Below, piece after piece: positions 29,836-51,105 of a DNA stretch of 64,000 nt. Position 1 is the first letter of the stretch. Each line of letters starts with the position of its first letter. The notes beneath the pieces were generated by a model that made no database searches, was not told where the DNA came from, and saw only the letters and a program-made list of their open reading frames with translations. The translations under genes were made by a program, and so were the position numbers. The stretch is from Heterostelium album PN500 (taxonomy: Eukaryota; Evosea; Eumycetozoa; Acytosteliales; Acytosteliaceae): contig NW_008805070.1 of assembly GCF_000004825.1 (NCBI RefSeq), forward strand, positions 1,612,001 to 1,676,000. Direction: 5' to 3'.

Positions 29836-30270
29836 ATATAAATAATAAAATCTTATATTAAATAGTTTTATAATTTGTTTAAACAATACACAATCAAGGA
29901 ACAACAAAGAGCTGAGGACTATGACAACTAACATTTAATCCGAGTATGGTCAACTAAGAAAAATTATATGCACAACTAAGTCTGGGATCAGTTCCTCCAA
30001 TACCTACTCAGGAAGAGGAAGACCATCTATCCCACCAGCATTTCATAGCAATTTCGATACTGAATCAAATGAGAATTTCAAAATAGAATCGAGAGCTACT
30101 TGAAATCTCTATCAGACCAAAGTATGAAGAGTATAAAGCGAAAACATTCTCAAAACAAATTCTTTGGTTGGTTAACAATGTAGTGGTACCTAGATTGTTC
30201 TAATAAGATTCTCATGTCGGTGTCGTTACAAAAAAGCTACCACTATGTCGATGATAAACAACTCTTCTAG
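29836..30270. other. Spacer with unidentified coding-like debris
   Basis: About 430 bp between the eEF1A pseudogene and the FNIP gene's 3' flank. A plus-strand frame reads SGISSSNTYSGRGRPSIPPA-like before stops. Nothing is recognised. Confidence 0.3.
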
Positions 30271-30561
30271 TTGATAGCTTCATCGGCGGAACTAACAATA
30301 CCCACCAACTATTGAGGATATTACCAGTATAACCAAAACCCAATTTCCAATCAATTGCAAATTATTAGGTAGGATAACATACAGATATTACCAAGTTTAT
30401 TTAAATGATACCAATTAAGATAAAATAATAATTATTATAATTGAAATAAATTGTTTTTTTTAATCTATCTATAAGATTTTTTTTCTTAAATTAATCAAAA
30501 AAGCTATTATCATAATAAAAAAATTAGACAATATTGAATTAAATATCTTATTTAAAAAAGT
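30270..30561. repeat. 3' flank of FNIP gene, shared with 42051-42335 (inverted) and 50954-51105
   Basis: Reverse-complemented, this flank matches the DNA after the FNIP gene at 40.9-42.05 kb. Shared features are the run ATTATTATTTTATCTTAATT, GGTATCATTTAAATAAAC, the TTTGCAATTGATTGG stretch, and TCCTCAATAGTTGGTGGGTA. The first 150 bp also match the flank after 50953. The flank shows that whole gene-plus-flank blocks were duplicated, not just the repeats. Confidence 0.85.
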
Positions 30562-33378
30562 TTATTTCTGTTTTGTTAAAAGTAGAGCAGTGATGAATTC
30601 TCCTGAAATTTGATTGTTATGAGAGTCCACAAAGTCTATCTTTGATAAATTGCGTTTTGAATAATAATCAGGATAGAATTCTTTGATAAATTCAAGTGAA
30701 TCATTTGAATTGGTTAACACCAATGCTTGTATTTTTTGGTTGTCGACACCAAGATAAATTTCAAGTGTTTTTAGATTTGAAAGTAATTTGTTTTCATTCT
30801 TTGAGTCTTTGTGATCTATACCAATAATGAATGTTATCATTGATTGTGGTAAAGTCATTCCAAAATAGCTACTCGTTATATATTTACTAGAAAGCGATAA
30901 TCTCCGAAGTGATGATGGAAGTACACCGACTGATAATATTTGATTGAATTCACAGCCAAACACCAATGATTCAAGTGATTTAGGTAACACACCAACTGAT
31001 AATATTTGATTGAATATATCTCCAAACACCAATGATTCAAGTGATTTAGGTAACACACCGACTGATAATATTTGATCGAAGTAAATTCCAAATTTCAATG
31101 ATTTCAGTGATTCAGGTAACACACCAACTGATAATATTTGTTTGAATCCATCTCCAAACTCCAATGATTCAAGTGATTCAGGTAACACACCGACTGATAA
31201 TATTTGATTGAATCTATATCCAAACTTCAATGATTCAAGTGATTCAGGTAACACACCGACTGATAATATTTGATTGAATATATCTCCAAACTCCAATGAT
31301 TCAAGTGATTTAGGTAACACACCGAATGATAATATTTGATCGAAGTAAATTCCAAATTTCAATGATTTCAGTGATTCAGGTAACACACCAACTGATAATA
31401 TTTGTTTGAATCCATCTCCAAACTCCAATAATTCAAGTGATTCAGGTAACACACCGACTGATAATATTTGATTGAATCTATATCCAAACTTCAATGATTC
31501 AAGTGATTCAGGTAACACACCGACTGATAATATTTGATTGAATATATCTCCAAACTCCAATGATTCAAGTGATTTAGGTAACACACCGAATGATAATATT
31601 TGATCGAAGTAAATTCCAAATTTCAATGATTTCAGTGATTCAGGTAACACACCGACTGATAATATTTGATTGAAATAATATCCAAACTCCAATAATTCAA
31701 GTGATTTAGGTAACACACCGACTGATAATATTTGATCGAAGTAAATTCCAAATTTCAATGATTTCAGTGATTCAGGTAACACACCAACTGATAATATTTG
31801 ATTGAAATAATATCCAAACTCCAATGATTTCAGTGATTCAGGTAACACACCGACTGATAATATTTGATCGAAGTAAATTCCAAATTTCAATGATTTCAGT
31901 GATTCAGGTAACACACCAACTGATAATATTTGATTGAATCCATCTCCAAACTCCAATGATTCAAGTGATTTAGGTAACACTCCGAATGATAATATTTGAT
32001 TGAATCCATCTCCAAACTCCAATGATTTCAGTGATTGAGGTAACACACCAACTGATAATATTTGATTGAATCTATATCCAAACTTCAATGATTTCAGTGA
32101 TCGAGGTAACACACCGACTGATAATATTTGATTGAAATTAGATCCAAATGATAATGATGTCAGATTTGGAGGGAGTGAATTAGATTGCAATGGTTGATTA
32201 AATTCATCACCAAATTCAATTACAGTGATATTGACTGAGCTGTTTTTGAATGTAGTATTTAAATTAAATGTAATTGAATGTTGATCAATGATAGTTTCAA
32301 TATATTGGTTTAATAATTGATTCAATGATTCTCTATGAGAATTATAAATGACATGAGATTGTTTGAGATAGTCAAGATTGGTTAGAGCTTTTTCAATATT
32401 GATTGTGTGAGATTGTGATTTGTTTACCAACTCTGCGTTAGATATAGGTATAGAATTTGACTCTATTATGGATTGCGATGATTTTATTTTTGAGATTGGT
32501 GGTTCGATTTGATTGATATTGGGTATTTTGATTGTGAATTTATCAGATTGTGTTGGTGATAAGGAGTTGATATTGTTGTTATTGTTATTATTGTTACTAA
32601 TGTGTGATTGAAATTGATCATTGTCGTTGTTGTTGTTGTTTTTGCTAGTATGCAATTGGAATTGATTATTGTATTTATGTACGATCTCTACTAATGATGT
32701 AGGTTGTGAATTGTAGTTTTGCAATAATTCCGTATTATCTTTACCATCACTATTGACCATATTCTCATCGATAAATGATTGCAATGATGAAGAATTTGCG
32801 ATTTGTTTTAATAAAGATGCTGTTGAAAACTGTGAAGCTGTATCAGATGATAAATCTCCACTTCCAATTGCATTGCCTATCATCTGACTTTTTATGCTTC
32901 CCATCATATTGATTGTAATATTTAATTCTTTGAGCTCGCATAAATGATCATTGATTAGCTTCTCCAGAGTATTTCTATCTTTATCGATCGATAGCTTGAA
33001 TTTGTTTTTCTCTGCTATTAAGTACTCTTGTAACTCTTTGAAATGTTGTAATGTACTATTCTCGCGATCCGACAGCTCTTGGTATTTGGTTGTTGCCGAT
33101 TTAATCGATTGCCATACAGAATCTCTCTTTGAATATATGAAAGTTGAATAACTATAATAATCATTTTCGACCTTGGCGGATGGTTGGTTATCATTATCAT
33201 AGATACTCTGCATGATATTATCCTCTACTGTATCGATGTGCTGACATTGTTTGGCATGAGTCGGTTCCTCTCTGACATGTATGAAAATACATTGAGGACA
33301 CAACATTTTCATACACACACTACATATGAATTTATATGTTTTATGATGCACTTTGCATCTTTTATCTCTAAAATCCAT
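30562..33378 (-). CDS. B-box / coiled-coil / FNIP-repeat protein, intronless and without the kinase region
   Basis: Single exon, 938 residues. The B-box is C8-x2-H11-x7-C19-x2-C22-x4-C27-x2-C30-x3-H34-x5-H40. A coiled coil follows (about 85-165: SVWQSIKSATTKYQELSD, HFKELQEYLIAEKNKFK). An Asn-rich linker then carries SPTQSDKFTIKIPNINQI and NLDYLKQSHVI. Directly after this comes HRESLNQLLNQYIETI, which in the two sister genes lies after a kinase-like domain and four introns. About 20 FNIP units of 22 residues run from 391 to 831 (FNQILSVGVLPxSLxxLxFG), ending in SSLRRLSLSSK. A conserved 107-residue C-terminal cap ends ITALLLTKQK. FNIP repeats form an LRR-like solenoid in dictyostelids; ligands are unknown. 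It is head-to-head with the truncated gene at 33671. Confidence 0.88.
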   Translation of the reverse strand: MDFRDKRCKVHHKTYKFICSVCMKMLCPQCIFIHVREEPTHAKQCQHIDTVEDNIMQSIYDNDNQPSAKVENDYYSYSTFIYSKRDSVWQSIKSATTKYQELSDRENSTLQHFKELQEYLIAEKNKFKLSIDKDRNTLEKLINDHLCELKELNITINMMGSIKSQMIGNAIGSGDLSSDTASQFSTASLLKQIANSSSLQSFIDENMVNSDGKDNTELLQNYNSQPTSLVEIVHKYNNQFQLHTSKNNNNNDNDQFQSHISNNNNNNNNINSLSPTQSDKFTIKIPNINQIEPPISKIKSSQSIIESNSIPISNAELVNKSQSHTINIEKALTNLDYLKQSHVIYNSHRESLNQLLNQYIETIIDQHSITFNLNTTFKNSSVNITVIEFGDEFNQPLQSNSLPPNLTSLSFGSNFNQILSVGVLPRSLKSLKFGYRFNQILSVGVLPQSLKSLEFGDGFNQILSFGVLPKSLESLEFGDGFNQILSVGVLPESLKSLKFGIYFDQILSVGVLPESLKSLEFGYYFNQILSVGVLPESLKSLKFGIYFDQILSVGVLPKSLELLEFGYYFNQILSVGVLPESLKSLKFGIYFDQILSFGVLPKSLESLEFGDIFNQILSVGVLPESLESLKFGYRFNQILSVGVLPESLELLEFGDGFKQILSVGVLPESLKSLKFGIYFDQILSFGVLPKSLESLEFGDIFNQILSVGVLPESLESLKFGYRFNQILSVGVLPESLESLEFGDGFKQILSVGVLPESLKSLKFGIYFDQILSVGVLPKSLESLVFGDIFNQILSVGVLPKSLESLVFGCEFNQILSVGVLPSSLRRLSLSSKYITSSYFGMTLPQSMITFIIGIDHKDSKNENKLLSNLKTLEIYLGVDNQKIQALVLTNSNDSLEFIKEFYPDYYSKRNLSKIDFVDSHNNQISGEFITALLLTKQK
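30900..32215 (-). repeat. 66-bp FNIP tandem repeat array, about 20 units
   Basis: Each 66-bp unit encodes 22 residues and keeps the gene frame. A four-unit (264-bp) block with unit endings GDI-GYR-GDG-GIY occurs twice in succession (about 31130-31660), showing recent block duplication within the array. Confidence 0.9.
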
Positions 33379-33670
33379 TATTTAATAGTTAATAAAAAAA
33401 AAAAATATGGAAAAAGTGATAATTTTTTGATTTGTGAAAAAAATAAAAATCTAAGTTCAAAACTTTTTAAAAAAAATTAAAAATTAAAATTAAAAAATTA
33501 AAAATTTTTTGAAAATATTTAAATAAAAAAATTTAAATAAAATAAAAATATTAATTTTTTTTAATTTTTTTTGGTTTTTTTTTTTTTTTGATCAATGTCT
33601 TATGGTGATCAAAAAAATAATTTGCACATCAAAGATAAATCTTTTTTATTTTTTTCACTATTTTGTTAGA
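33379..33670. promoter_or_regulatory. Divergent promoter region, FNIP gene / B-box gene pair 1
   Basis: 292 bp between start codons, nearly pure A/T with long A and T homopolymers on both sides. It is equivalent in position and texture to 38242-38492 and 46623-46870. Confidence 0.55.
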
Positions 33671-34579
33671 ATGGTTTGCACAGAGCACAATAAAAAATTT
33701 AAGAGCATATGTTTTGTTTGCAACAAATTATTGTGCACAAGATGTATGCTTGGCCACATAAGAGATCATCCATTGTTTGTAAACCATATAGGAGAAATCA
33801 TAGATTATTTGAATAATTCATTTGAGCACGAAGTATCAACAGATGAACACGTATTCATCAAGAGGAAAAAAGAATCACTATGGAGTGAAATCCAGATATC
33901 AACCAACAGATATAAAACATTATCAACTCAAGAAGAACAAATAAAAAAGTATTTCGAAGAAATATTTAATTTTTTTATGGCTCAGGAGTTTTCGAAAAAA
34001 AGAGAAATAAGAAAAGAGAAAAAGATAATGAAAAGGCATATCAATAATAAAATCGACGAATTAAAAGAGATAGTAAAGATATTAGAAATAAATAATGTAA
34101 TAAACTCAACTAACAATAGTATTAATAGTGAAAGAGTTAAAAGTACAAATGTAGTAGATAACCTATCAGATATCTCAGAAACACATGTATCGACTATAGA
34201 AACTCTAACTAAATCGATTTCAGATAGCAAGTCTCTATTTTCGTTTATCAAATCTAACAGGGAAACTTTATTCTATGTGGATCAAATAGAAATCGACCAA
34301 CTACGTAGCCAACACAATAATGACTTATTATTATTATTGGATTCGCTTCTCAAATACAACACGAAATTCAAAGCTACAGAACCCCTAAAAAACAATAATA
34401 ATAATAATAATAATAATATTAATAACAACATCAATGATCAGCATATTTATAATGAATTTAAGGTATTATTCAATGAAATTGATTTCAAAATTTTCAGGTC
34501 GATCATCCAACAATCAATAACAGTAACATCATCAACATTCCCACAAAACAACACAAATATGACTTACTTTGCTGAATAG
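33671..34579 (+). CDS. Truncated B-box/coiled-coil gene lacking the propeller
   Basis: 302 residues from the ATG at 33671. An upstream in-frame ATG at 33602 exists, but paralogs start just before the B-box. The B-box is C3-x2-H6-x7-C14-x2-C17-x4-C22-x2-C25-x3-H29. The coiled coil contains SLWSEIQISTNRYKTLST and KKYFEEIFNFFMAQEF. The linker has LLLLLDSLLKYNTKF, then FRSIIQQSITVTSSTFPQN. At the point where paralogs enter the propeller (compare TIGLVASTLPPSKTDL in the 44.8-kb gene) the frame ends with NMTYFAE. The stop lies inside a 10-bp-arm hairpin (34564-34587). It could be a functional B-box-only protein or a 3'-deleted gene. Confidence 0.7.
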   Translation: MVCTEHNKKFKSICFVCNKLLCTRCMLGHIRDHPLFVNHIGEIIDYLNNSFEHEVSTDEHVFIKRKKESLWSEIQISTNRYKTLSTQEEQIKKYFEEIFNFFMAQEFSKKREIRKEKKIMKRHINNKIDELKEIVKILEINNVINSTNNSINSERVKSTNVVDNLSDISETHVSTIETLTKSISDSKSLFSFIKSNRETLFYVDQIEIDQLRSQHNNDLLLLLDSLLKYNTKFKATEPLKNNNNNNNNNINNNINDQHIYNEFKVLFNEIDFKIFRSIIQQSITVTSSTFPQNNTNMTYFAE

Positions 34580-34587
34580 CAAAGTAA
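34564..34587. repeat. Hairpin at the truncation point
   Basis: TTACTTTGCT (34564-34573) and AGCAAAGTAA (34578-34587) are perfect inverted repeats with a 4-base loop; the stop codon of the truncated gene is in the right half. It may mark the rearrangement joint. Confidence 0.8.
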
Positions 34588-35099
34588 TCTAGAAATCTAG
34601 CAGGTTATCAGCATTTTTGGCTGGGTCTCTGCTGTGCGCAATCATTACAACAGAACAACAATCAAACCAGTAACCCTTCATTGACAGTTAACACAAACAT
34701 AAACTAATAATTCTAAACTGTACAAATATCGAATTAATATCACACAGCACTGTGGCCAGTTGTAATAGAATGAATAATAATTAAATAAACACTTCACAGT
34801 TATAAGTGTAATTATATCATTTACATTATCTTTAATTTTTTATTAGTTTTTATTTTAATAAAATTTGTATCTAATATTATACACAACATTCTTTGCTGTT
34901 CACACATTTTTTTTTTTTGAATGAAAAAAAGTTCAAATTTTTTTGTGACCACAAAAACCACAAAAAAATTAAAATCAATTAATATCATTCAAAAATTAAT
35001 ATCAGGCAATAAGTTTATTAACGACTTAGAGAAATTCAACACCAAAGCTTCAAATTTTAAATAAAATAATACACATACAAATCATTGTATATTGTTAGA

Positions 35100-36050
35100 T
35101 TAACAAATCAAATTACTTTTTCTCAATATATTTCAAGATAGTGTTACTTCAAAGTTTAGTATGGGTATGGTATTCACTTAAAAAAAGTTTATATTTATAG
35201 ATTACTAATTCTATAGACAATTAAAATATTTGATCAACTAAGATGCCATACTCGTTACTGTACACATATCGCCAAGTAATGATCAGGCTATTGCTATGAT
35301 GGAAATGGGTGAAGGTGGTTCTCTAGAATCTCAAAATTAGGATTAGTTAAGATCACAGTGATTCCACAAGTAAAACGAACGTACTTAGTGCTGGTTTAGA
35401 CAATTCTCACTCATTGGTCAAGACAGTCAAGACAAAGAGCATATCAATGGTAATTAGATGAGTCACACAAATGCCAATTAGAGTGGATCATCCATCGATT
35501 GGAGATAATTTGACATGAACGTGGAGTAATGTATGCTATCACTGACAAACTTAATAATCAACATATAACACCGATAATAATACTTTTTTTTTTTTTGTTG
35601 TTTTTAAATTATAGACTTTTAGTTTTTACCAGCAGAATCTAGACAGTTAGATATATGAATAGCTATAAAGCATTAGTTTTGACGTACACATTCTAGTTGC
35701 TATGTGAGGTGAAAGTCGACTGTCACTGGCGACTACCATGGTAGTCTCTTGTCTACACTTTAATTAAATTAAAGTTCTGGTTTCAATATGATAGCGACAT
35801 GGTCAAAACTAATGCTTTATAGCTAGATTCGCCAGAAAAAGATTAGCTAATTCATTACCAGAGAATGTACCACCGATTTCTTTTTTTACCAGATTCACCA
35901 CCTCATAGTCTCCAGTCATCAACCCAACAGAGATCCAGCGGCAAAACAACTTCAAACTACCTACCCAGACGGCAACACATCTGCTAGCCAACCTCAATCA
36001 AGCCCGATAAAACAACTGTAGCCGAGCACTAATCCCGCCATCAATCATCA
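35100..36050. repeat. Duplicated non-genic block, copy 1 (copy 2 at 43280-43960)
   Basis: Stretches shared with the 43-kb copy include the sequence AACTAAGATGCCATACTCG and its continuation (35237 vs 43427), AACACCGATAATAATAC, TTAGTTTTTACCAGCA with the following 30 bp, and a minus-strand coding-like piece (KKEIGGT..SGN.(L/V)ANLF). A decayed gene probably underlies it; the product is not recognised. In both places the block lies on the 3' side of a minus-strand propeller gene. Confidence 0.7.
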
Positions 36051-36459
36051 AACATGAATTAGACTTCGAGTGTTGTTTGACATCCCTGATTACGATCTAG
36101 ATTCAAACCGATGCTTGTGGATTCACTCCTACCCAATCGCGAATCCATGGAATAGACTAGATAATTTTATTGTTTACTTTGTAGATTGTTCATCCATAAG
36201 TATTGACTAGCTTCTCCAATCATCCTTATATTCAGATTTAAATTCTATTTATTCAGAATATTTGTCAAAATGGTTATGTCGGTGGTTGATTGGTCAAGGA
36301 TACCACAATACTTTTTATAGGATCATTGTGGCAGCCGACTTCTGACAACACTTAAGTTATCATCACCTTATATATTTGACCGGCTATTTAATAAAAAAAT
36401 ATGAAAAAAATACTATCTATCGATTATATCTATAATATTATTTATCCATTTTTATTAGT
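36051..36459. other. Spacer 3' of the propeller gene
   Basis: About 400 bp with no supported gene. Confidence 0.4.
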
Positions 36460-38241
36460 TTAATTAATTTTGTTTATTAAAATAATTGATATAGATCCGC
36501 ACCGAGACCGATAATATTTATCATCTTTAAAGATTCGTTCCCATTCATTATCTGCAATCGAATATCTGAAATTACCATTATCCACACCACCAAACGAATA
36601 GATACAACTTGATGTTTCTGACTCTTGGTGATACATTAAAAATACAATTCCAGACTTAGTCGGAGCTGGGTGTAGATTGTTTGGGCTTAGGTTGATTGTG
36701 TTTTTGTTTTCAACATTGTACTGAATGAAACCTAATTCTGGTTCTTTTGAATGTATGAAGAAGGTACCATTGTTATCGTTACAGGCTGTGTATACTATTG
36801 TACCAATATGAGAAATAGCCGTTGTTTTGTTTGCAATATCAAATTCTATAATAAAATCCTTGTTGAATGGTATTGTGTATAGTTTACCTTTGAAGATCAT
36901 CGAAGATACTTGTTGACCGTGATGGACAGGCAGTTTATGATATTTTTCAAATTTCATTGTCTTGATGTTGAATCGATCGATTCTATTTGTTCTAAAACCA
37001 TTTACCAAATAGATATGATCTTGACCATCATAACAAACTGAAATAGCCCAATCACCTTCAATTTCTTCAATCTTTGTGTTGTCGTCAGAGATTGATTTCA
37101 TATCGCCAATATGATCAATTAATTTCGATTTAGTTGAAATCTTACACCATTTAGTTTGATGGCTAGAACCACCGAACACATAGATATATTCATTGATTGC
37201 AATTATTGAAGCATAGGTTTGCTTAAAGCATCGTCCAAAAGATAATTGTTCGGTTGAATTGTTGTTTGATGTGTTGATAAGCGTTGCTCCTTCATCTTGG
37301 TGGGTGGTGAATATATATCTTCCTTTATTGTCATTGTTGTATTTTGGAAACAATACATCTATTTTTTTTTTAAAAGAAGAAATGAATTTATTGATAACAG
37401 GCTTTCGAGATAGTTTAATGTTATTGTTGTTATTGTTGTTATTGTTATTGTTATTGTTATTATTGTTATTGTTGTTGTTGTAGTTATTGTTGTTTAGTTT
37501 TTCTGCTGGATTGAATTGCAGACTGTACTTGTGAATAATATCCAATAATAGTAATGATGGTGAATTGTTATGTTGTTGGAGAATGTTATCCATAGTGAAT
37601 GGGGTGGTGTCATTTCTGTGTGGCTGTAGTTGTTGGTCGATAATATTTTGAACATTGAACAATGTTCTCCTATGATTTTCCATAAACGTCTGAAGAGACG
37701 GGCATTCGGAAATTGATTTCGTTAGTGTTTCTGTGTCTATTTGTGACATATCTGATTGCCTATCTCCACTATTACTACTATCACTATTACTATTTGTTGA
37801 AGTTGGATGCAACAGCTTACAAGAATCTATTAACTTTACTATCTCTTTTAAATTATTGATATTATTATTGATTTGTTCTTCTAATATTACTTTCTCTTCT
37901 ATTATATTTTGTAATTCGTTGCTCTCTTGAAGAGTAAGGAAATTGTGTAATTCACAGTAAAACTCTCTTATATCTTTCTCGGTAGCTGATAAAGAAAGAA
38001 ATTTTTGGGATAATTTTTTGGCTTCGCTCCATTCTTCCTCCTTTTTCGTTTTGATCAATATAGGTTCTAATTCTGTGTATCCAAATGGATTAGATAAATA
38101 CAATTTGATCTTATCTATGTGATTTATATGCAAAGCTGGTTCCGGGTGTTGAAAGTGCTCAACATAGCACTTTGTGCAAATTAAAATGTTGCATTTAAAA
38201 CATATGCTATCGCAAGTCTTATCATGCTCTTTGCATATCAT
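36460..38241 (-). CDS. B-box / coiled-coil / kelch-like propeller protein, intact (pair 2)
   Basis: Single exon, 593 residues. The B-box is C3-x2-H6-x7-C14-x2-C17-x4-C22-x2-C25-x3-H29. The coiled coil spans about 55-150 (KKLSQKFLSLSATEKDIREF, YCELHNFLTLQES). The linker has SLLLLDIIHKYSLQF followed by an Asn run of about 25 residues. The propeller starts at about 305 (RYIFTTHQDEGATLINTS) and shows NEYIYVFGGSSHQTKW, CYDGQDHIYLVNGFRTNRID, ACNDNNGTFFIHSKEPE and CIYSFGGVDNGNFRYSI. It is divergent from the FNIP-kinase gene 251 bp away. Compared with the 12.5-kb member it has an insertion before the second blade (DDNTKIEEIEG). Confidence 0.88.
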   Translation of the reverse strand: MICKEHDKTCDSICFKCNILICTKCYVEHFQHPEPALHINHIDKIKLYLSNPFGYTELEPILIKTKKEEEWSEAKKLSQKFLSLSATEKDIREFYCELHNFLTLQESNELQNIIEEKVILEEQINNNINNLKEIVKLIDSCKLLHPTSTNSNSDSSNSGDRQSDMSQIDTETLTKSISECPSLQTFMENHRRTLFNVQNIIDQQLQPHRNDTTPFTMDNILQQHNNSPSLLLLDIIHKYSLQFNPAEKLNNNNYNNNNNNNNNNNNNNNNNNNNIKLSRKPVINKFISSFKKKIDVLFPKYNNDNKGRYIFTTHQDEGATLINTSNNNSTEQLSFGRCFKQTYASIIAINEYIYVFGGSSHQTKWCKISTKSKLIDHIGDMKSISDDNTKIEEIEGDWAISVCYDGQDHIYLVNGFRTNRIDRFNIKTMKFEKYHKLPVHHGQQVSSMIFKGKLYTIPFNKDFIIEFDIANKTTAISHIGTIVYTACNDNNGTFFIHSKEPELGFIQYNVENKNTINLSPNNLHPAPTKSGIVFLMYHQESETSSCIYSFGGVDNGNFRYSIADNEWERIFKDDKYYRSRCGSISIILINKIN

Positions 38242-38492
38242 CCTCTTTAAAAATTAATATGCTATACAAAAACTGTTTGTAAAAGAATCTTTTTGTGAAC
38301 ATCGACATTTTTTTTTTTGATCAAAACCAAAAAAAATTAATAAGAAAAAAAAAAAAATTAAAAAAAAATTAAAAAAAAATTAAAATTAAAAATAAAAATT
38401 TTTAATTTTTTTCACCATTTTTTTTTTTCAAAAATAATATCTTTTATTTTTTACATCAACCATACAGTAATCTTTTTAATTAATTAATAACA
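38242..38492. promoter_or_regulatory. Divergent promoter region of pair 2
   Basis: 251 bp of A/T homopolymers between the propeller gene (-) and the FNIP-kinase gene (+). No spacing for two independent promoters is evident. Confidence 0.55.
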
Positions 38493-41400
38493 ATGGATAT
38501 TAGAGAAAAACAGTGTAATGAGCATAATAAAGCTCACGAATTCATATGTTTTTTATGTATGAAAGTGATGTGTCCTTTATGTATTTTTACTCATGTCACT
38601 GAGGAACCAACTCATAGCAAGAACTTTCAACACATCGAATCAGTAGAACCTAAAATCAAGCATAGTATCTATGATCCTGTTAACCAAGCATCTGGCACAC
38701 CTAAGGTTGACAATGATTACAAAAGATATTCATCATTCATACAATCAAAGATAGATTCAATGTGGGAAGCGATCGTATCGTCAACAAACAAGTTTAAGGA
38801 GCTAATGGATAGAGAGGATAGGATACTGCTACACTTTAAAGAGATACATGACTATCTAATTGCACAGGAAAACAAATTTAAGCAGTTGATCGATGAGGAT
38901 AGAAAGACGCTAGAGACGCAAATCAAGGAGAATATGAACGAACTTAAAGAATTAATTATTACAAACAGTATGATGGTTAGAGTAGCTGAAAGTCAAAAGA
39001 TAAGCAATGCAATTGGAAGTGGAAACATCTCGTCTTCAAATTTTAGGACTAAACCAGTTTCAACAGCAACATTATTAGAACAAATTGCCATTTCTTCAGA
39101 ATTGCAATCTTTTATCAATGAAAACGATCAGATTTGGTTCAACAAAGCATTGGATATGAAAGTCTCCGGCATCAGCGATATTGAAGTATTACAACAATAT
39201 AGTTCACCTCCTTCATCATTATTGGAAATCGTTCATAAATTCAATGATCAATTTCAATCACACATTAGTAACAATAATAACAATAACAACAATATCAACT
39301 CCTTATCACCAACACAATCTGATAAATTCACAATCAAAATACCCAATATCAATCAAATCGAACCACCAATCTCAAAAATAAAATCATCGCAATCCATAAT
39401 AGAGTCAAATTCTATACCTATATCTAACGCAGAGTTGGTAAACAAATCACAATCTCACACAATCAATATTGAAAAAGCTCTAACCAATCTTGACTATTTC
39501 AAACAATCTCATGTCATTAATAATTCCGAGAAAACAGATAGATTAATCAATGAAAAGAAGATCTTGAAATTTAGAGCTTGTAGTTTCATGCAGAAATACA
39601 TAGTTTTAGTTTATAATCATTTGAAAGATAAAGATAATGAACAACACAGAAATATCATATTAATTGGAAATATTAATAAGGAAAATGATGAGCTTGAAAT
39701 TCCAGATACAGTCGATACTCAATATCAATTAATAATAATACGTTTCTTTTTATTAACTCCCATATACATATCTTTATACTCAGAGTTATTAAATAAATCA
39801 CAATCATACACAATCAATACTCAAAAAAGTCAATCCATACACGATCTTGACTATTTCAAACAATCACATATCATTAATAACAAACGATATCATTTAATAT
39901 CAAGATTTCCAAACAGTAATAATATCAATGATGTTTTTTTAGTGTGTGGTACTGACAAAAGATTGGTAAGATCATTTTGATATCTATTTAATCAATTAAC
40001 ATTTTATAAGACTAACAAAATCAATACAAAAGTATATTTATAAAAAGATAAACTATAAAGAAAATCAAAAATCTTATGAAAGAGCTGAGAATGAAATCAA
40101 AGCAATGAAATTACTCAAAGATAATCCAAGATTTGTTCAACTAACTGACTATCATCATGATAAAGACAACCAAATCTTTCATATCATCTCTGAATATTGT
40201 GATGGCGATGATCTAGATCAAAAGTATAAACGTTTGACTGATCAAAATCAGTATGTATAAATATAAATATAAAACTTACTTGAATTTTATCGAGATCGGA
40301 TACTAACAACTTTTTTTTAATATAATAATAGAATTTTTGAAGAATCAGATATTATTTATTATATTTTACAACTTTTTAATATTCTTTTGGATCTTGACAA
40401 ACATGGAATTGTTCATTGTGATATCAAACCTTCAAACATATTCATTGATAATACATATAAAACTTTGAATTTGGTTCTCGGTGATTTTGGATGTTGTAAA
40501 TTCATTGATAAATCAACAATCATTGAATATCAAGATACAAAGGTACCTGTCGCGATAACAGGTGATTCCAATCCGGAAAATATTTATGATACAACAATTT
40601 CAAACACACTTATAAATGCAACTGAAATTGTTGGAACTATTGGTTATAGTTCACCAGTAAGTAAATTTATTTTCGTTTAATTAAGTATATTTTTAACCTA
40701 TTTTAACTATTTAACTCCACTAGGAAGCAAAGAACCGACAATATGCACAATCATGTGACATATTTTCAATTGGATCAACGATACTTAAATTATTATGTTG
40801 GTAAATACTCGAATAATCATTTTTATAATATTGTTATCAATCATATATTAACTCGTTATTTTTGAATATTTAAATTGATCAGTCATCAAGATGATCGAAA
40901 TAATCATCAACTATTCCAATCTACTGGTGAAATTATCATTTCAGAATGCAGATATTCAAAACAATTGATTCAATTTATTCATCGATTGTTGGGTCAGAGT
41001 CCAAAGAATAGAGAATCATTGAATCAATTATTAAACCAATATATTGAAACTATCGATCAACATTCAATTAGATTTAATTTAAACACTACATTCAAAAACA
41101 GCTCAGTCAATATCACTGTAATTGAATTTGGTGATGAATTTAATCAACCATTGCAATCTAATTCACTCCCTCCAAATCTGACATCATTATCATTTGGATC
41201 TAGATTCAATAAAATATTATCATCCGGAGTGTTACCTAAATCACTGAAATCATTGGCGTTTGGATATACATTCAATCAAATATTATCAGTTGGTGTGTTA
41301 CCTGAATCACTTGAATCATTGAAGTTTGGAGATATATTCAATCAAATATTATCAGTTGGTGTGTTACCTGAATCACTAAAATCATTATCATTTGGATTTA

Positions 41401-42050
41401 CATTCAATCAAATTTTATCAGTTGGTGTGTTACCTAAATCACTGAAATCATTGGTGCTCGGATATATGTTCAAGCAAATATTATCAGTCGGTGTGTTACC
41501 TGAATCACTTGAATCATTGGTGTTTGGAGATGGATTCAATCAAATATTATCAGTCGGTGTGTTACCTGAATCACTGAAATCATTGGTGTTTGGATTATTC
41601 TTCAATCAAATATTATCAGTTGGTGTGTTACCTAAATCACTTGAATCATTGGTGTTTGGAGATGAATTCAATCAAATACTATCAGTCGGTGTACTTCCAT
41701 CATCACTTCGGAGATTATCGTTTTCTTGTAAATATCTAACGAGAAGTTATTTTGGAATGACTTTACCACAATCAATGATAACACTCATTATTGGTATACA
41801 CAAATACTCAAAGAATGAAAACAAATTACTTTCAAATCTAAAAACACTTGAAATTTATCTTGGTGTCGACAACCAAAAAATACAAGCATTGGTGTTAACC
41901 AATTCAAATGATTCACTTGAATTTATCAAAAAAATCTATCCTGATTATTATTCAAAACTCAATTTATCAAAGAAAGGCTTTTTGGATTCTTATAACAATC
42001 AAATTTCAGGAGAATACATCACTGCTCTACTTTTAACAAAACAGAAATAA
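38493..42050 (+). CDS. B-box / coiled-coil / kinase-like / FNIP-repeat protein (pair 2)
   Basis: Five exons (38493-39965, 40033-40250, 40332-40656, 40724-40800, 40883-42050) join in frame to 1086 residues. The B-box is at 8-40 (same spacing as the 30.6-kb gene) and the coiled coil at about 90-170. A kinase-like domain spans about 470-760. Its glycine loop is degenerate (NDVFLVCGTDKRL); the candidate ATP lysine is in YIYKKI, the hinge in IISEYCDGDDL, the catalytic loop is HGIVHCDIKPSNIF (HCD instead of HRD), the magnesium loop is LGDFGCC, and the activation-segment end is GTIGYSSPE. Nine FNIP units follow (about 783-980), then the conserved cap. Exon 1 also has about 120 extra residues relative to the 46.9-kb gene, bounded by two copies of the NKSQS(H/Y)TIN..DYFKQSH motif. 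Confidence 0.85.
41140..41740 (+). repeat. FNIP repeat array, about 9 units of 66 bp
   Basis: In-frame 66-bp units encoding FNQILSVGVLPxSLxxLxxG, flanked by the diverged first (FNQPLQSNSLPPNL) and last (SSLRRLSFSCK) units that cap every array in the window. Confidence 0.9.
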
Positions 42051-42335
42051 ACTTTTTTAAATAAGATTTTTAATTCAATATTGTCTAATTTTTTTATTTT
42101 GATTAATAGCTTTTTTTGGATTAATTTAAGAAAAAAAATCTCATAGATAGATAAAAAACAATTTATTTCAATTTATTATAATTATTATTATTTTATCTTA
42201 ATTGGTATCATTTAAATAAACTTGGTAATATCTGAATGTTTTCTACCTAATAATTTGCAATTGATTGGGTTTTGGTTAAGCTGGTAATATCCTCAATAGT
42301 TGGTGGGTATTGTTAGTTCATGTACAACCAGAATT
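42051..42335. repeat. 3' flank shared with the other two FNIP genes
   Basis: Matches the reverse complement of 30270-30561 over nearly its whole length and 50954-51105 over the first 150 bp. It marks the downstream edge of the duplicated unit. Confidence 0.85.
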
Positions 42336-43275: not shown

Positions 43276-43279
43276 TTTA

Positions 43280-43960
43280 GAGCAAATAATATGTATAACA
43301 AAAGATAGTGATACTACAAAGTTTAGTTTGGAGGTAAATATTCACAATATAAAGTTTATATTTATTGATTACTAATTGTATAGAGCACATGTACAATAGT
43401 AACAAAAATTTTAATATATTTAATAAACTAAGATGCCATACTCGTTACTGTACACATATCACCAAGGAAATGATCATACTATTGCTTTTATGGAAATAAT
43501 TTGATATGAACGTTGAGTAACGTATGCTATCACTGTGTAACTTAATTATTCACATATAACACCGATAATAATACTTTTTTTTTTTGTTGTTTTTAAAAAT
43601 ATAGACTAGCTTGTTAGTTTTTACCAGCAAAATCTAGACGGTTGGATATATGAATAGTGAGAAAAGATTGGTTTTGTGGGACAGTGTCGCTATCATATTG
43701 AACCCGAATCATTCATTAAAGTCGGTACTCTGGTTTGATCAGTTTAGACAAGAGACTAAAAACTACGATGGTCGCTAGTGACAATCGACTATTCCACCTC
43801 CTATAGAGCACCTAGGTAAGTTGTGTACGTTCCACCTAGCGAATCTAGCTCGCCAGAAAAGATTCGCCACATCATTACCTGAGACTGTATTACCTTTAAC
43901 GATATTAGATGTACCACCGATTTCTTTTTTACCAGATTCACTCCAACCTAGACCACCCAT
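43280..43960. repeat. Duplicated non-genic block, copy 2 (copy 1 at 35100-36050)
   Basis: See the copy at 35.1 kb. This copy keeps a longer minus-strand frame (43960-43775) containing SGKKEIGGTSNIVKGNTVSG and NDVANLF. No family was recognised. It lies 3' of the propeller gene at 44775, the same relative place as copy 1. Confidence 0.7.
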
Positions 43961-44049
43961 TTATGCAGTAACCTTAAGTTATAGATGTGGAAGCAGAATA
44001 TCTATAGGTAATATCTGTACAAGAGCAGAACCATTTTATCATCTCTATG

Positions 44050-44330: not shown

Positions 44331-44774
44331 GTATAGCTCTTCGAAGGATGTTGCTGCAACCTCAAAGTTAAATCAATTTATCTAATTAATAATCAATAAA
44401 AGTCCATATTATAGAAAACAAATCAAACAAATGATCTTTTAGAAATTCAAAACTCTCGTTTGTTACTGATTTCAATTGTTTGATCGGCAGTTGTGATGTT
44501 GATGGTTGTTATTTTCTCCGATCAATACGTTATATCAAACATTGAGCATTTATTAAAAGTATTGTCCTGCTGGGCTCTTAAGAAAGTGTAACTATTATCA
44601 ATTTTTTGTTATTATCTCCTTCGGCGAATGAACTCGTGTATTTCCTGAATACTTTGCTTTTAAATTAAATTATTTTTTTAGTTGATTTCAAATTTAATGT
44701 TGAAAGATAGTATTAATGTACAATATATTATTCAAATTGTAAAATATTTATAATAGGTTTATTTAAATTGTAAA
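44331..44774. other. Spacer 3' of the propeller gene
   Basis: About 440 bp AT-rich DNA with nothing recognised. Confidence 0.4.
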
Positions 44775-46622
44775 TTATTTATTTTTTATTTCCACTGGTG
44801 CTGATGCACACCACAACCTTTCTTTTCCATCTTTTTCATTATTCATAAAGTATTGTTCCCATAGTTTATCTTCAATCGAATATCTGAAATTACCATATTT
44901 AGTACCACCAAATGTGTAGACAAAACTTGATGTTGAAGATTCACGCTGATACATCAGCATCAAGTATGCATTCTCCCGGGTTAAGTCAGGAATTAACTGT
45001 AGATTGTTGGTTACCTTTGGAGTGCTTTCAACATTGTATCGGATGAATTGCACTTCTGGATCTCGTGAATGAATGTAGAACGTACCATTGTTATCGTGAC
45101 AAGCTGTGTATGCTTTAAAGTTAGGGTGAAATTTGGTCTCAACAGTCGTTTTGGTTGCAATATCAAACTCTATAATAAAATCTCTATTGTAAGGTATGGA
45201 ATATAATATACCTTTGAAGATCATCGAGGATACCTGTTGACCATAATCCACTGTAAATTGAAAATATTTTTGATCGAATTGCATTGTCTTGATATTGAAT
45301 CGGTCGATTCTATTGGTTTTGAAACCATTAACCAAATAGATATGATCTTGACCATCATAACAAACTGATATAAAGCAATCACCTTGGATTCCAATCATCT
45401 CACCGAAGATAGTCGATTTATCTTTGATTGAAATCCTGCGCCATTGATTTATATTATTTTTACCACCGAATATGTAGATATTTTCACCAATTGTTATATT
45501 CGATGAATAAGTCATTTTAAAACAATGTCCAATAGCGAATTCCTCGGATTTGTTGTTTGATGTGTTGATAAGAGTGACTCCTCCTTCAATCTTTGTGGCA
45601 TCGTTTGATTGGTACGTAGACATGATGTAGTTTCCTTGTAAATCGGTTTTACTTGGGGGAAGTGTTGACGCCACTAAACCTATTGTTTGTTGTATGATCG
45701 GGCCGAATCTACTGAAATCAATATCCTTAATACATAGCCTAATGTCATTATAGTATTGGTCGCTGTCGAAGTTATTGCTGATTAGGTCTGCTGCTGGGTT
45801 ATTGGGTTCTTTCATGTATTTAAGAATGACATCCAATAATATTGAATCTGTGTCATCTTTGTGAAGTTCTCGTAAAATATTAATAGTATCGTCCACATTA
45901 TGATTGAACAAAGTCTGGCTGTTGGCATTAACAAACGACTGTATATTCGAGCTATTTGAAATTGATTTCGCTATGTATTCTATTGAATATTGTTCGGCTC
46001 GATCTTGACTGGGCTCCTCCTTTGATTTTGTTTCTGATTGACTGCAATCCATATCATCACTACTGTTATTATCTATTGCACCATTTAAGCTGTTACTATT
46101 GTTGTTGTTATTGTTGCTGTTATTATTATTATTGTTATTTGTACTTATTTCACTATTTACTATTGCTATCTTTATAAACTCTTGTAAATCTTTTACTTTA
46201 CTATTGATTTGTGTTTTTAATTTGTCCTTGTTTTCAAAAATGGATCTTTTAAACTTTGCCTCTAGATCTGTAAAGTACTTGTGTATTTTCCTGAAATACT
46301 CTGCTATCTCTTTTTCTGATTCCAACATGTAAAGATATCGATCCGTTGAAATTTTGAGTACTTTCCAAATTGATTCTGCTAAGAACTCGATGAATATTTC
46401 TGATTGATTTTGTTGATTTTGTTGATTTTTTTGATTTTTTTGAAAAAATTTATTTAAATACTCTTTGATATCTTCTACGTCATTTAAATATAAATCTATT
46501 TTATCTAACTGTTCTCGATGAGTTTTTTTGAAATGATCACAAAAACAATGTTGTTTGCAAATCAACTTTTTGCAATGAAAACATATATGAGTGGATTTAA
46601 TATTATGATTTTCACAATTCAT
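44775..46622 (-). CDS. B-box / coiled-coil / kelch-like propeller protein, intact (pair 3)
   Basis: Single exon, 615 residues. The B-box is variant: C3-x2-H6-x7-C14-x2-C17-x4-C22-x2-H25, with Cys26 and Cys28, H30 and H35, so one usual Cys is His or shifted. The coiled coil (about 80-165) contains SIWKVLKISTDRYLYMLE and YFRKIHKYFTDLEAKFK. The linker is Asn/Ser-rich with ILLDVILKYMKEP and FGPIIQQTIGLVASTLPP. The propeller from about 335 has GENIYIFGGKNNINQW, CYDGQDHIYLVNGFKTNRID, ACHDNNGTFYIHSRDPEVQF and VYTFGGTKYGNFRYSIE. It is closest to the 36.5-kb gene (shared HSRDPE/HSKEPE blade), fitting the tandem-unit model. It is divergent from the FNIP-kinase gene 248 bp away. Confidence 0.88.
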   Translation of the reverse strand: MNCENHNIKSTHICFHCKKLICKQHCFCDHFKKTHREQLDKIDLYLNDVEDIKEYLNKFFQKNQKNQQNQQNQSEIFIEFLAESIWKVLKISTDRYLYMLESEKEIAEYFRKIHKYFTDLEAKFKRSIFENKDKLKTQINSKVKDLQEFIKIAIVNSEISTNNNNNNNSNNNNNNSNSLNGAIDNNSSDDMDCSQSETKSKEEPSQDRAEQYSIEYIAKSISNSSNIQSFVNANSQTLFNHNVDDTINILRELHKDDTDSILLDVILKYMKEPNNPAADLISNNFDSDQYYNDIRLCIKDIDFSRFGPIIQQTIGLVASTLPPSKTDLQGNYIMSTYQSNDATKIEGGVTLINTSNNKSEEFAIGHCFKMTYSSNITIGENIYIFGGKNNINQWRRISIKDKSTIFGEMIGIQGDCFISVCYDGQDHIYLVNGFKTNRIDRFNIKTMQFDQKYFQFTVDYGQQVSSMIFKGILYSIPYNRDFIIEFDIATKTTVETKFHPNFKAYTACHDNNGTFYIHSRDPEVQFIRYNVESTPKVTNNLQLIPDLTRENAYLMLMYQRESSTSSFVYTFGGTKYGNFRYSIEDKLWEQYFMNNEKDGKERLWCASAPVEIKNK

Positions 46623-46870
46623 TTATATTGATTTATGATTGAACTAATTTAAAAATAAAAAGGTATAATGTCTTATTAAAAAAAACAGTTTCACACAATG
46701 TCATTCTGAAAAAAAAATTGAAAAAAAAAACAAAAAAAATAAAATCAAGAATTTGAGTTCACAAAAAACGTTACAAAAAACAAATCTGATGACCCAAAGA
46801 AAAAAAATTTTAATCTCAAAATATTTCATTTTTTTTTTCTCTAATTTGTTTATTTATTTTTTTTAACTAT
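46623..46870. promoter_or_regulatory. Divergent promoter region of pair 3
   Basis: 248 bp of A- and T-runs between two start codons. Same arrangement as pairs 1 and 2. Confidence 0.55.
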
Positions 46871-49800
46871 ATGAATATGGATAAAGAGAATAATAATTTA
46901 TGTACTCTCCATCAGAGATCACTAGAGTTCATATGTAATTTATGTAAAAAGTCAATGTGTACGAAATGCATTTCCGTTCATTACAGAGAGGAACCAACTC
47001 ATCTCGATCACTGTCAGCACATTGACGCTAAAGATGATCAACATATTGATAATAATAATAATAATGATAGTCAATCATCTTTTAATAATAGAGTAGAGAG
47101 TGACTATGATAGATATTATTCGTTCATAAAGTTAAAGACAGCATCAGTTTGGGAAACGATTAGGTCATCAACTACGAGATATCAAGATCTATTGGATCGA
47201 GAGAACAAGTTATTACAACATTTCAAAGAGTTAAAAGAGTTGTTGGAAGCTGAGGAAAGTAAAGCTAGGCTATCGATCGACAAAGATAGAGAGGAACTAG
47301 AGAAGCAAATCAATATGAGTATTAACGAATTAAAAGAATTAAATATTACGATCAGTATGATGGGTAGAATATTTAAAAGTCAAAAGATAGGCAATATAAT
47401 CGATGATACCGACAATATATCTTCATCTCTGCAGTTTTCAACAGCAAATTTATTGAAACAAGTTGCCAGCTCTTGCTCATTGGAATCATTTATCAATGTT
47501 GATAATCAAACATTGTTCAATGATAATCAGATTGAAATTCCTCAAAGCTACAGTTCACCCCCTTCAACATCATTGTTGGATATCGTTCATAAATACAATG
47601 ATCAATTTCAATCACACATTAGTAACAATAATAACAATAACAACAATACCAACTCCTTATCACAAACACAATCTGATAAATTCACAAATAAAATACCCAA
47701 TATCAATCAAATCGTACCACCAATCTCAATAAAATCATCGCAATCCATAATAGAGTCAAATTCTATACCTATATCTAACGCAGAGTTGGTAAACAAATCA
47801 CAATCTCACACAATCAATATTGAAAAATCTCTAACCAATCTTGACTATTTCAAACAATCATATATCATTAATAACAAACAATATCATTCAATATCAAGAT
47901 TTCCAAACAGTAATAATATCAATGATGTTTTTTTAGTGTGTGGAACTGACCAAAGATTGGTAAGATCATTTTGATATCTATTTAATCAATTAACATTTTG
48001 TAAGACTAACAAAATCAATACAAAAGTATATTTATAAAAAGATAAACTATAAAGAAAATCAAAAATCTTATGAAAGAGCTGAGAATGAAATCAAAGCAAT
48101 GAAATTACTCAAAGGTAATCCAAGATTTGTTCAACTAGCTGACTATCATCATGATAAAGACAACCAAATCTTTCATATCATCTCTGAATATTGTGATGGC
48201 GGTGATCTTGATCAAAAGTATAAACGTTTAATTGATCTGAATATGTAGGTATAAAAACATAAAATATTTGATTCTTATAGAGATATGGATTAATATTATA
48301 CTAACCACTATATTTAAATATAATAGAATCTTTGAAGAATCAGATATTAGTAATTATATTTCACAACTTTTTAATATTCTTTTGGATCTTGATAAACATG
48401 GAATTGTTCATTGTGATATCAAACCTTCAAATATATTCATTGATGGTGGTAGTTTGATGCTTGGTGATTTTGGATGTTGTAAATTCATTGATGAATCAAT
48501 ATCCATTGAATATCAAGATGCAAAAGTATTTTTTGAGCTACCTGTTGTCATAAAATATCCAACTATATCTAATATGAATTCAAATTCACTTATAAATGCA
48601 ACTCGTGGAACTATTGGTTATATTTCACCAGTAAGTAAATTGTTTTTCGTTTAATTAAGTATATTTTTAACCTATTTTAACTATTTAACTCACTAGGAAG
48701 CAATCAAACGACAATATGCACAATCATGTGACATCTTTTCAATTGGATCAACGATACTTAAATTATTATGTTGGTAAATACTCGAATAATCATATTTAAA
48801 ATATTGTTATCAATCAGATACTAACTCGTTATTTTTGAATATTTAAATTGATCAGTCATCAAGATGATCGAAATAATCATATACGATTCAAATCTACTGG
48901 TGAAATTATCATTTCAGAATCCAGATATTCAAAACAATTGATTCAATTTATTCATCGATTGCTAGATCAGAATCCAAAGAATAGAGAATCATTGAATCAA
49001 TTATTAAACCAATATATTGAAACTATCATCGATCAACATACAATAAGATTTAATTTAAACACTACATTCAAAAACAACTCAGTCAATATCACTGTAATTG
49101 AATTTGGAAATGAATTTAATCAACCATTGCAATCTAATTCACTCCCTCCAAATCTGACATCATTATCATTTGGATCTAATTTCAATCAAATATTATCAGT
49201 CGGTGTGTTACCTGAATCACTGAAATCATTGGTGTTTGGACTTGTCTTCAATCAAATATTATCAGCTGGTGTGTTACCTAAATCACTGAAATCATTGGTG
49301 TTTGGATTTTATTTCAATCAAATATTATCTGTCGGTGTGTTACCTGAATCACTAAAATTATTGGTGTTTGGAGATAGATTCAATCAAAAATTATCAGTCG
49401 GTGTGTTACCTGAATCACTGAAATCATTGGTGTTCGGAGATGGATTCAATCAAATATTATCAGTCGGTGTGTTACCTAAATCACTTGAATCATTGGTGTT
49501 TGGATATAGATTCAATCAAATATTATCAATCGGTGTGTTACCTGAATCACTGAAATCATTGGTGTTCGGAGATGGATTCAATCAAATATTATCAGTCGGT
49601 GTGTTACCTGAATCACTTGAATCATTGAAGTTTGGATATTCATTCAATCAAATATTATCAGTCGGTGTGTTACCTGAATCACTTGAATCATTGGTGCTTG
49701 GAGATGGATTCAATCAAATATTATCAGTCGGTGTGTTACCTGAATCACTTGAATCATTGAAGTTTGGATTTTATTTCAATCAAATATTATCAGTCGGTGT

Positions 49801-50953
49801 GTTACCTGAATCACTAAAATTATTGGTGTTTGGAGATAGATTCAATCAAATATTATCAGTCGGTGTGTTACCTGAATCACTTGAATCATTGAAGTTTGGA
49901 TATGGATTCAATCAAATATTATCAGTCGGTGTGTTACCTGAATCACTTGAATTATTGGAGTTTGGATATGCATTCAATCAAATATTATCAGTCGGTGTGT
50001 TATCTGAATCACTGAAATCATTGGTGTTTGGAGATGGATTCAATCAAATATTATCAGTCGGTGTGTTATCTGAATCACTGAAATCATTGGTGTTTGGATA
50101 TGCATTCAATCAAATATTATCAATTGATGTGTTACCTGAATCACTTGAATTATTGGTGTTTGGATATGCATTCAATCAAATATTATCAGTCGGTGTGTTA
50201 CCTGAATCACTGAAATCATTGGTGTTTGGAGATGGATTCAATCAAATATTATCAGTCGGTGTGTTACCTAAATCACTGAAATCATTGGTGTTCGGAAATA
50301 GATTCAATCAAATATTATCAGTCGGTGTGTTACCTGAATCACTTGAATCATTGAAGTTTGGATATGCATTCAATCAAATATTATCAGTCGATGTGTTACC
50401 TGAATCACTTGAATCATTGGTGTTTGGAGATGGATTCAATCAAATATTATCAGTCGATGTGTTACCTGAATCACTGAAATCATTGGTGCTTGGATATTCA
50501 TTCAATCAAATATTATCAGTCGGTGTGTTACCTAAATCACTTGAATCATTGGTGCTTGGAGATGAATTCAATCAAATATTATCAGTCGGTGTACTTCCAT
50601 CATCACTTCGGAGATTATCACTTTCTAGTAAATATCTTACGAGTAGTTATTTTGGAATGACTTTACCACAATCAATGATAACATTCATTATTGGTATGCA
50701 TCACAAAGACTCAAAGAATGAAAACAAATTACTTTCAAATCTAAAAACACTTGAAATTTATCTTGGTGTCGACAACCAAACAATACAAGCATTGGTGTTA
50801 ACCAATTCAAATGATTCACTTGAATTTATCAAAGAATTCTATCCTGATTATTATTCAACACGCAATTTATCAAAGATAGGCTTTGTGGATTCTCATAACA
50901 ATCAAATTTCAGGAGAATACATCACTGCTCTACTTTTAACAAAACAGAAATAA
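46871..50953 (+). CDS. B-box / coiled-coil / kinase-like / FNIP-repeat protein, longest array (pair 3)
   Basis: Five exons (46871-47959, 48027-48244, 48327-48630, 48697-48773, 48856-50953) join in frame to 1261 residues. Intron positions and phases match the 38.5-kb gene. The B-box is C11-x2-H14-x7-C22-x2-C25-x4-C30-x2-C33-x3-H37-x5-H43. The coiled coil is at about 85-170. The kinase-like domain (about 340-640) has IISEYCDGGDL, HGIVHCDIKPSNIF, LGDFGCC and GTIGYISPE, with YIYKKI as the likely lysine strand. About 23 FNIP units (about 648-1154) and the cap ending LLLTKQK follow. A basal Ser/Thr-kinase (NEK-like) character is suggested by the EYC-GGDL hinge; the HCD loop and poor glycine loop leave activity uncertain. 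Confidence 0.85.
49110..50640 (+). repeat. FNIP repeat array, about 23 units of 66 bp
   Basis: In-frame units, largest array in the window. Most differences between units fall at the same few positions (E/K before SL, K/E after SL, V/K/E before FG, and the two residues after G). First and last units are the conserved caps. Confidence 0.9.
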
Positions 50954-51105
50954 ACTTTTTTTAAATAAGATTTTTATTTCAATATTGTCTAATTTTTTTT
51001 TATTATGATAAAGAAATAAAAATCTCATAGATAGATAAAAAAAAAAATTTTATTTTATTTTATTATAATTATTATTATTTTATCTTAATTGGTATCATTT
51101 AATAG
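50954..51105. repeat. 3' flank of the FNIP gene; right edge of the duplicated unit
   Basis: Matches 42051-42215 and the reverse complement of 30400-30561, then diverges after GGTATCATTTAA (about 51100). This places the right breakpoint of the segmental duplication. Confidence 0.85.

Follow-up and report, generated by a model that had tools for sequence, protein, structure and literature searches.

We found that a divergent gene pair, made up of a Kelch-propeller gene and an FNIP-side gene that are both of the B-box/coiled-coil type, occurs four times within about 44 kb of the Heterostelium album genome. As judged from its sequence, each unit is a mosaic of an old head (the propeller gene, the promoter, and the FNIP-side B-box/coiled coil) and a young cassette (a poly-Asn linker, a kinase, FNIP repeats, and the 3' flank). 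Three of the pairs (A, B, and C) lie in the analyzed window of 64 kb (contig C9, positions 1612001-1676000); the fourth, D, lies 6 kb past its end and was absent from the first-pass annotation. The genome that we searched comprises 39 contigs and 32.9 Mb. The anatomy of these paired, mosaic units is well supported by the comparisons detailed below. Our best reading is that of a TRIM-like pair in which one partner would be a place where C-terminal domains are repeatedly fused. We consider it fairly probable that the pair was copied to its four locations, that the B lineage captured a young cassette, which then spread, and that the products are RING-less, TRIM-like receptors with FNIP variety.

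Inspecting the reading frames and splice models confirmed the three head-to-head B-box pairs previously claimed for the window, with gaps of 292, 251, and 248 bp (Table 1). Comparing the stretch with itself, as had been proposed, revealed homology on the expected strands: 32339-34324 aligned with 39526-37609 (minus, 69.8%), covering both N-termini and the gap and lying outside the FNIP repeats; 30289-31422 aligned with 42319-41193 (minus, 90.2%); and 39763-41708 aligned with 47764-49684 (plus, 87.9%), the B and C cassettes being collinear at 88% identity across 1.96 kb. The genes are thus related beyond their repeats. In contrast, the promoter homology postulated alongside was not recovered: alignments among the promoters were no better than those of shuffled sequence (six comparisons, 60 shuffles each, z -0.2 to 1.6). 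On the 3' side, the cassettes end at about 30289 (A), 42319 (B), and 51102 (C). In the predicted splice models of B and C, with four introns each, every intron falls within the kinase region; two splice sites are weak (a GTAGGT donor in C intron 2 and an AAG acceptor in intron 1). Downstream of 34.58 kb, a search for a remnant of the copy A propeller returned chance-level matches only.

Several neighbors were also observed in the window. About 200 bp past the end of the shared 3' flank of copy C begins a BED-type zinc finger-like ORF (51298-51720, plus strand), recognized by eye, with a terminal short tandem repeat and no Pfam match. The same family is represented by further genes, with a B-box and/or Kelch, at 12495-14270 (minus), 14878-15909 (plus), 60428-62113 (plus), and 63492-64000 (plus).

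Table 1. Features of the four head-to-head pairs (window positions, unless contig C9 is given)
Feature	Position	Strand	Size and content	Basis
Copy A FNIP-side gene	30562-33378	-	938 aa; B-box/coiled-coil head, two abutting poly-Asn linkers, 20 FGxxFN repeats, no kinase	ORF
Copy A intergenic gap	33379-33670		292 bp, 11% GC	
Copy A propeller gene, ends before propeller	33671-34579	+	302 aa; B-box, coiled coil	
Copy A exchanged cassette	30289-32623	-	linker, FNIP, 3' flank; no kinase	change-point and flank alignment
Non-genic block of B	35135-35898		dispersed low-copy repeat	
Copy B B-box/coiled-coil/Kelch-propeller gene	36460-38241	-	593 aa	Kelch_6 7.3e-19; B-box from alignment and Cys/His pattern
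Copy B intergenic gap	38242-38492		251 bp, 14% GC	
Copy B FNIP-kinase gene	38493-42050	+	5 exons, 1086 aa, 9 FGxxFN repeats	splice model
Copy B FNIP-kinase exons	38493-39965, 40033-40250, 40332-40656, 40724-40800, 40883-42050	+		splice model
Copy B cassette, inferred donor lineage	39242-42319	+		
Copy B joint, head linker/FNIP-kinase sequence	39397-39440	+		genome DNA search
Non-genic block of C	43302-43941		dispersed low-copy repeat, same as that of B	
Copy C B-box/coiled-coil/Kelch-propeller gene	44775-46622	-	615 aa	Kelch_6 1.2e-12; B-box from alignment
Copy C intergenic gap	46623-46870		248 bp, 17% GC	
Copy C FNIP-kinase gene	46871-50953	+	5 exons, 1261 aa, 23 FGxxFN repeats	splice model
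Copy C FNIP-kinase exons	46871-47959, 48027-48244, 48327-48630, 48697-48773, 48856-50953	+		splice model
Copy C cassette	47596-51102	+		
Copy D propeller gene	C9 1682246-1683982	-		
Copy D FNIP-side gene	C9 from 1684264	+	gap to propeller gene 281 bp	

Examining the rest of the genome revealed such close pairing, among the matches listed, at this locus only. We merged the B-box/coiled-coil 5' ends found by a search with the propeller protein (74 of 93 rows used; the 19 left out were short and most of them N-terminal) and by a search with the FNIP-side head (150 of 153 matches listed). The search scores best candidates only, and the 149 merged 5' ends may include a few that are pieces of one and the same gene. 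Among the matches listed, the only head-to-head neighbors less than 1 kb apart were A, B, C, and D, whose 5' ends span 1.645-1.684 Mb of C9; head-to-head pairing as a rule of the B-box family was thus rejected. Most neighbor pairs within 10 kb, among the same matches, were tandem (42 of 56, one being the two fused B-boxes of D), with nine divergent and five convergent.

The FNIP-side and propeller-side heads of partners are homologous to each other (24-32% identity). In a midpoint-rooted tree of 34 rows (25 propeller-family loci, the paired heads, and the fused half of D), the four FNIP-side heads grouped together (100/100), with B and D as sisters (99/97), and so did the four propeller-side heads (99/94). 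The latter sit on branches of 0.85-1.93, compared with an end-branch median of 0.3, and the propeller-side B and C rows were flagged as long; with this and the midpoint root, deeper placement in the tree is unsure. Since the only close head-to-head pairs found are these four, all at this locus, and both head types group in the tree, the pairing looks like the outcome of one founder event that was subsequently copied.

Co-regulation of the partners had been suggested together with the pairing. As the promoters show no conservation above shuffled sequence and close head-to-head pairing was found in these four cases only, what the sequence offers in its favor is the orientation and the similar gap lengths (248-292 bp); the partners may share a function and be co-expressed. 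A non-genic block had likewise been described as common to B and C. There, parts of it are indeed collinear (76-97% alike), but fragments recur on C3, C5 (two places), and C11 too, and we therefore regard it as a dispersed low-copy repeat. The possibility that the block is a known RNA gene was rejected, the only Rfam match at gathering thresholds being a tRNA at 11.05 kb. This tRNA-Val gene (anticodon aac) is directly followed by a perfect direct repeat (11128-11474 versus 11367-11713; 347 bp, 100%, offset 239), together occupying 11049-11713.

The two halves of each unit differ markedly in age. Between copies, dS is 0.47-1.02 for the FNIP-side heads and 0.47-0.97 for the propeller genes overall (N-termini, 0.59-0.97; propellers of B, C, and D, 0.47-0.88). 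Among the cassette segments of A, B, and C, it is 0-0.14: 0-0.03 for the linker, 0 for the junction, 0.05-0.10 for the stretch before the FNIP repeats, 0.03-0.05 for the tail, and 0.14 for the kinase (B-C), with the FNIP arrays outside this measure. A likelihood change-point placed the edge immediately 5' of the coding poly-Asn tract, with 185/707 differences to its left versus 0/256 to its right for A-B, 209/684 versus 6/261 for A-C, and 237/696 versus 7/267 for B-C (0/500 permutations in each comparison). Copy D served as a control, and no comparable edge was found for A-D (33/500 permutations) or B-D (154/500). For C-D, the change-point was also reached in 0/500 permutations, but it lies near nucleotide 222, with 0.42 versus 0.27 of positions differing and no near-identical side, and is thus a different edge.

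The unit is not a simple tandem duplication, given that in A, B, and C the heads far exceed the FNIP/kinase half in age. Accordingly, the first-pass annotation was right about a duplicated divergent pair, as evident from both head groups in the tree and the four pairs, but its simple tandem unit of about 8 kb was an incomplete reading. A plain tandem duplication of that unit could still be reconciled with the young half if diversifying selection had acted on the B-box halves; order and orientation are kept, the propeller-side branches are long, and dN/dS reaches 0.74. However, it is synonymous divergence that rises severalfold or more at the edge, which selection at the protein level would not cause. 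We thus rejected this explanation on synonymous sites and consider it very improbable.

Different genes have been joined to the same kind of FNIP-side head. Behind the FNIP-side head and the same linker, copy C continues into a 5'-truncated FNIP-kinase, copy B into a 5'-truncated FNIP-kinase together with a nearly complete second FNIP-kinase N-terminus that has lost its own start codon, and copy A into FNIP repeats with no kinase. In copy D, the head is fused in frame, right after KSSQSI, to a B-box/propeller gene that is whole except for its start codon, and the fused protein has no FNIP or kinase match in Pfam. The fusion site lies just after KSSQSI both for the FNIP-kinase (A-C) and for the B-box/propeller gene (D), and the captured gene lacks a start codon in both B and D.

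We next consider where the FNIP-kinase part came from. A survey of FNIP sequences typed 39 rows representing 38 loci (one row per locus, two for one gene), and a survey of kinases typed 41 loci, each from the best 150 of 205 matches; in the latter, eleven places were set aside because their kinase matches were weak, partial, or generic (C5:924638 and C2:387278, among others). Among the matches listed, a kinase lies upstream in 29 of the 39 typed FNIP rows (28 loci). The B-box head described here was found at A, B, and C only among the listed FNIP loci, and at B and C only among the 41 typed kinase loci; the other 39 gave no upstream B-box match to the copy C head used as query, a search that a very different B-box could escape. 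All four stand-alone FNIP-kinase 5' regions that we read begin with MN...IE...D.L and show no B-box in the frames read. This N-terminus (MN...IE...) is internal and start-less in B and absent from C and A. Two kinase-less FNIP genes have F-box-like N-termini, below the Pfam cut-offs. The cassette stems from a family of at least about 40 kinase loci.

The joint in copy B can be followed at the level of single bases. A 301-base probe across it had 16 matches genome-wide. Its 5' side was matched by A, C, and D (D covering bases 25-198), and its poly-Asn part, weakly, by two places on C24. On C11 and C35, nine places with stand-alone FNIP-kinases matched the 3' side only (starting from base 198, 228, 233, or 240). 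In copy A, the start of its own linker (NNQFQLHTSKNNNNND) abuts the NDQFQSHIS linker common to B and C. This double linker is best read as a non-allelic joint between an own and an imported linker, the alternative being an internal duplication. The D linker is 0.43-0.50 in dS from those of A, B, and C. Between D and B, the dS of head (0.47) and linker (0.43) are alike, whereas the heads of A and C are more distant from D (0.86 and 0.87) than their linkers (0.43 and 0.50). Hence, the linker of the cassette is of the B type and was most likely passed on to A and C; this comparison covers 51-52 linker codons. Under our preferred reading, the cassette would have been captured on the B lineage after the split of B and D, and would then have reached A and C via ectopic recombination or gene conversion.

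A different history could place the cassette on all heads before they diverged, with in-place gene conversion keeping A, B, and C alike and D losing its cassette through a deletion that fused its head to the neighboring B-box/propeller gene. The collinearity of the B and C cassettes would fit this scenario. So would the fused part of D with its 3' flank, which is collinear with window positions 22.4-27.9 kb, downstream of copy A, as a deletion of the FNIP tail predicts. However, the divergence between the B and D heads (dS 0.47) is far older than that among the A-B-C cassettes, the fused protein of D shows no FNIP or kinase by Pfam, and the abutting linkers of copy A are easier to obtain through a non-allelic joint. 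We regard this history as somewhat unlikely. 

The region collinear with D contains a gene of its own, E (26359-27994, minus strand), a frameshifted propeller gene with no B-box. It is inverted and collinear with the fused half of D (71% alike) and its 3' flank, which together lie at C9:1685401-1688430; pieces of that flank lie at 22.4-25.1 kb of the window (78%, 90%, and 98% alike). A head linker in gene E, which would make the D fusion ancestral, was sought in its frames and by comparison with D, and none was seen. Between copy A and gene E, elongation factor 1-alpha-like fragments in several frames were recognized by eye at 29021-29830, likely a pseudogene.

The FNIP arrays differ in length between copies. 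All FGxxFN repeats (20 in A, 9 in B, and 23 in C) are spaced 22 residues apart, and the flanks of the arrays are nearly identical. Over the 52 repeats, the highest entropies belong to the two residues between FG and FN (2.32 and 3.14), which form 21 different pairs; repeat residues 16, 19, and 22 are variable too. The codon-position entropies of these two residues are 1.55/1.14/0.14 (repeat residue 3) and 1.54/1.86/1.19, third bases being less variable than the first two. This suggests that selection has favored variety at an exposed FNIP face. It agrees with a previous description, available to us in part, of the xx of FGxxFN as the most variable residues (PMC9525666).

Most B-boxes at the locus score below the Pfam cut-off (24.1 bits) or have no match. 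Those above it are in the propeller gene of copy A (24.9 bits, scored on a slightly longer ORF from 33602) and the second B-box of D (26.9 bits). The FNIP-side B-boxes fall below (A, 18.8; C, 17.1; B, 14.4 bits), and the propeller genes of B and C gave no Pfam B-box match at E 0.01, their B-boxes resting on aligned cysteines and histidines. Both of these genes score above cut-off for Kelch_6. An AF2 model of the copy C propeller protein, built from five window sequences (mean pLDDT 58), resembles the Keap1 Kelch domain (Foldseek E 1.4e-11, TM 0.72 by target); ten-residue pLDDT means are 57-90 in its propeller part, and two long helices (73-98 and 103-161) are predicted at a pLDDT of just 35-52. 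On the FNIP side, copy A scores 529.7 bits for FNIP, with no Pfam kinase match. Copy C matches Pkinase (PF00069; 2.1e-36, 126 bits), and copy B aligns to this kinase along 264 codons. FNIP repeats follow the kinase in both B and C; in B, an ORF that lies within the last exon scores 111 bits for FNIP.

TRIM proteins combine a B-box, a coiled coil, and a variable C-terminal domain. A similar layout is predicted here, with the difference that Pfam detected no RING finger in the proteins scanned, whose reading frames begin at the B-box. TIG and NB-ARC domains had no Pfam match in the pair proteins either. Elsewhere in the window, a gene at 1600-3558 (minus strand) has TIG and ComC supersandwich matches that pass the cut-off, plus a weak EGF-like one; such an architecture recalls tgr or ComC genes.

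From this anatomy we infer how the pairs might work. The B-box/coiled-coil heads of both partners would oligomerize, the Kelch propeller and the FNIP solenoid would offer target-binding surfaces, and the kinase would provide the signaling output; FNIP arrays, hypervariable at the xx of FGxxFN, would alter what gets recognized. Since copy A has neither propeller nor kinase, the full function cannot apply to every pair.

Copy A, with its cut-off propeller gene and missing kinase, may instead suggest that the locus is decaying debris of a turnover-prone family, its copies and fusions neutral and mostly non-functional. The frameshifted gene E (26.4-28.0 kb), which has no B-box, would be in line with this, and so would the dN/dS of the kinase (0.65 for B-C) and of the tail after the FNIP repeats (1.95 for A-B, 1.97 for B-C, and 0.47 for A-C, all based on few changes), values that do not clearly indicate strong constraint on the young cassette. 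However, the spliced frames of B and C stay open over 1086 and 1261 codons, each with a single, terminal stop, and the kinase motifs HCDIKPSN and DFG can be recognized by eye. Moreover, dN/dS is 0.34-0.74 for the propeller genes, 0.32-0.43 for the FNIP-side heads (calculated as the ratio of the dN and dS values), and 0.46 for the fused half of D compared with the gene at 12.5-14.3 kb. We thus find it unlikely that the locus is mere debris.

Returning to the captured cassette as the preferred explanation, the locus represents a datable amoebal case in which conserved paired heads apparently captured C-terminal domains and exchanged them, the joint being seen at base level. Replacing or exchanging the tail between copies while the front ends diverge resembles the reshuffling of some immune and self-recognition genes. 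A bolder and rather unlikely proposal is that the FNIP-side head and its poly-Asn/KSSQSI linker serve as a landing pad, where the output or bait domain of one partner is swapped at a coding Asn tract, so that the pair would be the amoebal equivalent of the integrated-domain NLR pairs of plants. If so, coding poly-Asn tracts, which are common in dictyostelids, would be joints for domain shuffling. The locus offers a testable evolutionary role for such tracts.

Our literature search, which was thin on subscription journals, found no published account of this locus by title or start of abstract; the sources compared below were available in part. The components have known relatives. AreA (DDB_G0279871) of D. 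discoideum also combines a B-box and FNIP in one protein; it interacts with Atg101, its loss raises autophagic flux, and it was proposed to restrain autophagy (PMC4554924). AreA differs in also having DUF4559, and the available part of that source names no kinase or head-to-head pair. In P. pallidum, an orthologue group termed "Zinc finger, B-box domain and FNIP repeat-containing protein" counts 206 (PMC4334915), and FGxxFN repeats were linked to kinase domains (PMC9525666). The cassette described here belongs to the same FNIP-kinase family, in which the four stand-alone 5' regions that we read start without a B-box. FNIP genes have also surfaced in social contexts: an insertion in the D. discoideum FNIP gene chtB produced a social phenotype (PMC3559258), and one FNIP gene was listed among chimera-related genes (PMC4118049).

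The nearest precedents for the arrangement are the tgrB/C locus (PMC12324515) and the MIC1 NLR pairs of grasses (PMC5819176). The allorecognition genes tgrB and tgrC of Dictyostelium similarly form a diverging pair with one short putative shared upstream region. Ours is a second likely dictyostelid locus with diverging pairs that were copied and recombined. Theirs, however, encode TIG-domain membrane proteins, whereas the genes described here, known from sequence alone, encode B-box/coiled-coil proteins with Kelch, kinase, and FNIP domains. In the head-to-head MIC1 pairs, one partner repeatedly takes up domains from elsewhere at a single point just behind a 43-residue motif, for which transposition or ectopic recombination was proposed (PMC5819176). 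Here, too, different domains were fused at one site, after KSSQSI, but no NB-ARC was found, the four copies lie in one genome, and just two kinds of genes were captured (FNIP-kinase and B-box/propeller). The pairs are thus alike to both precedents in arrangement and turnover, and a member of neither.
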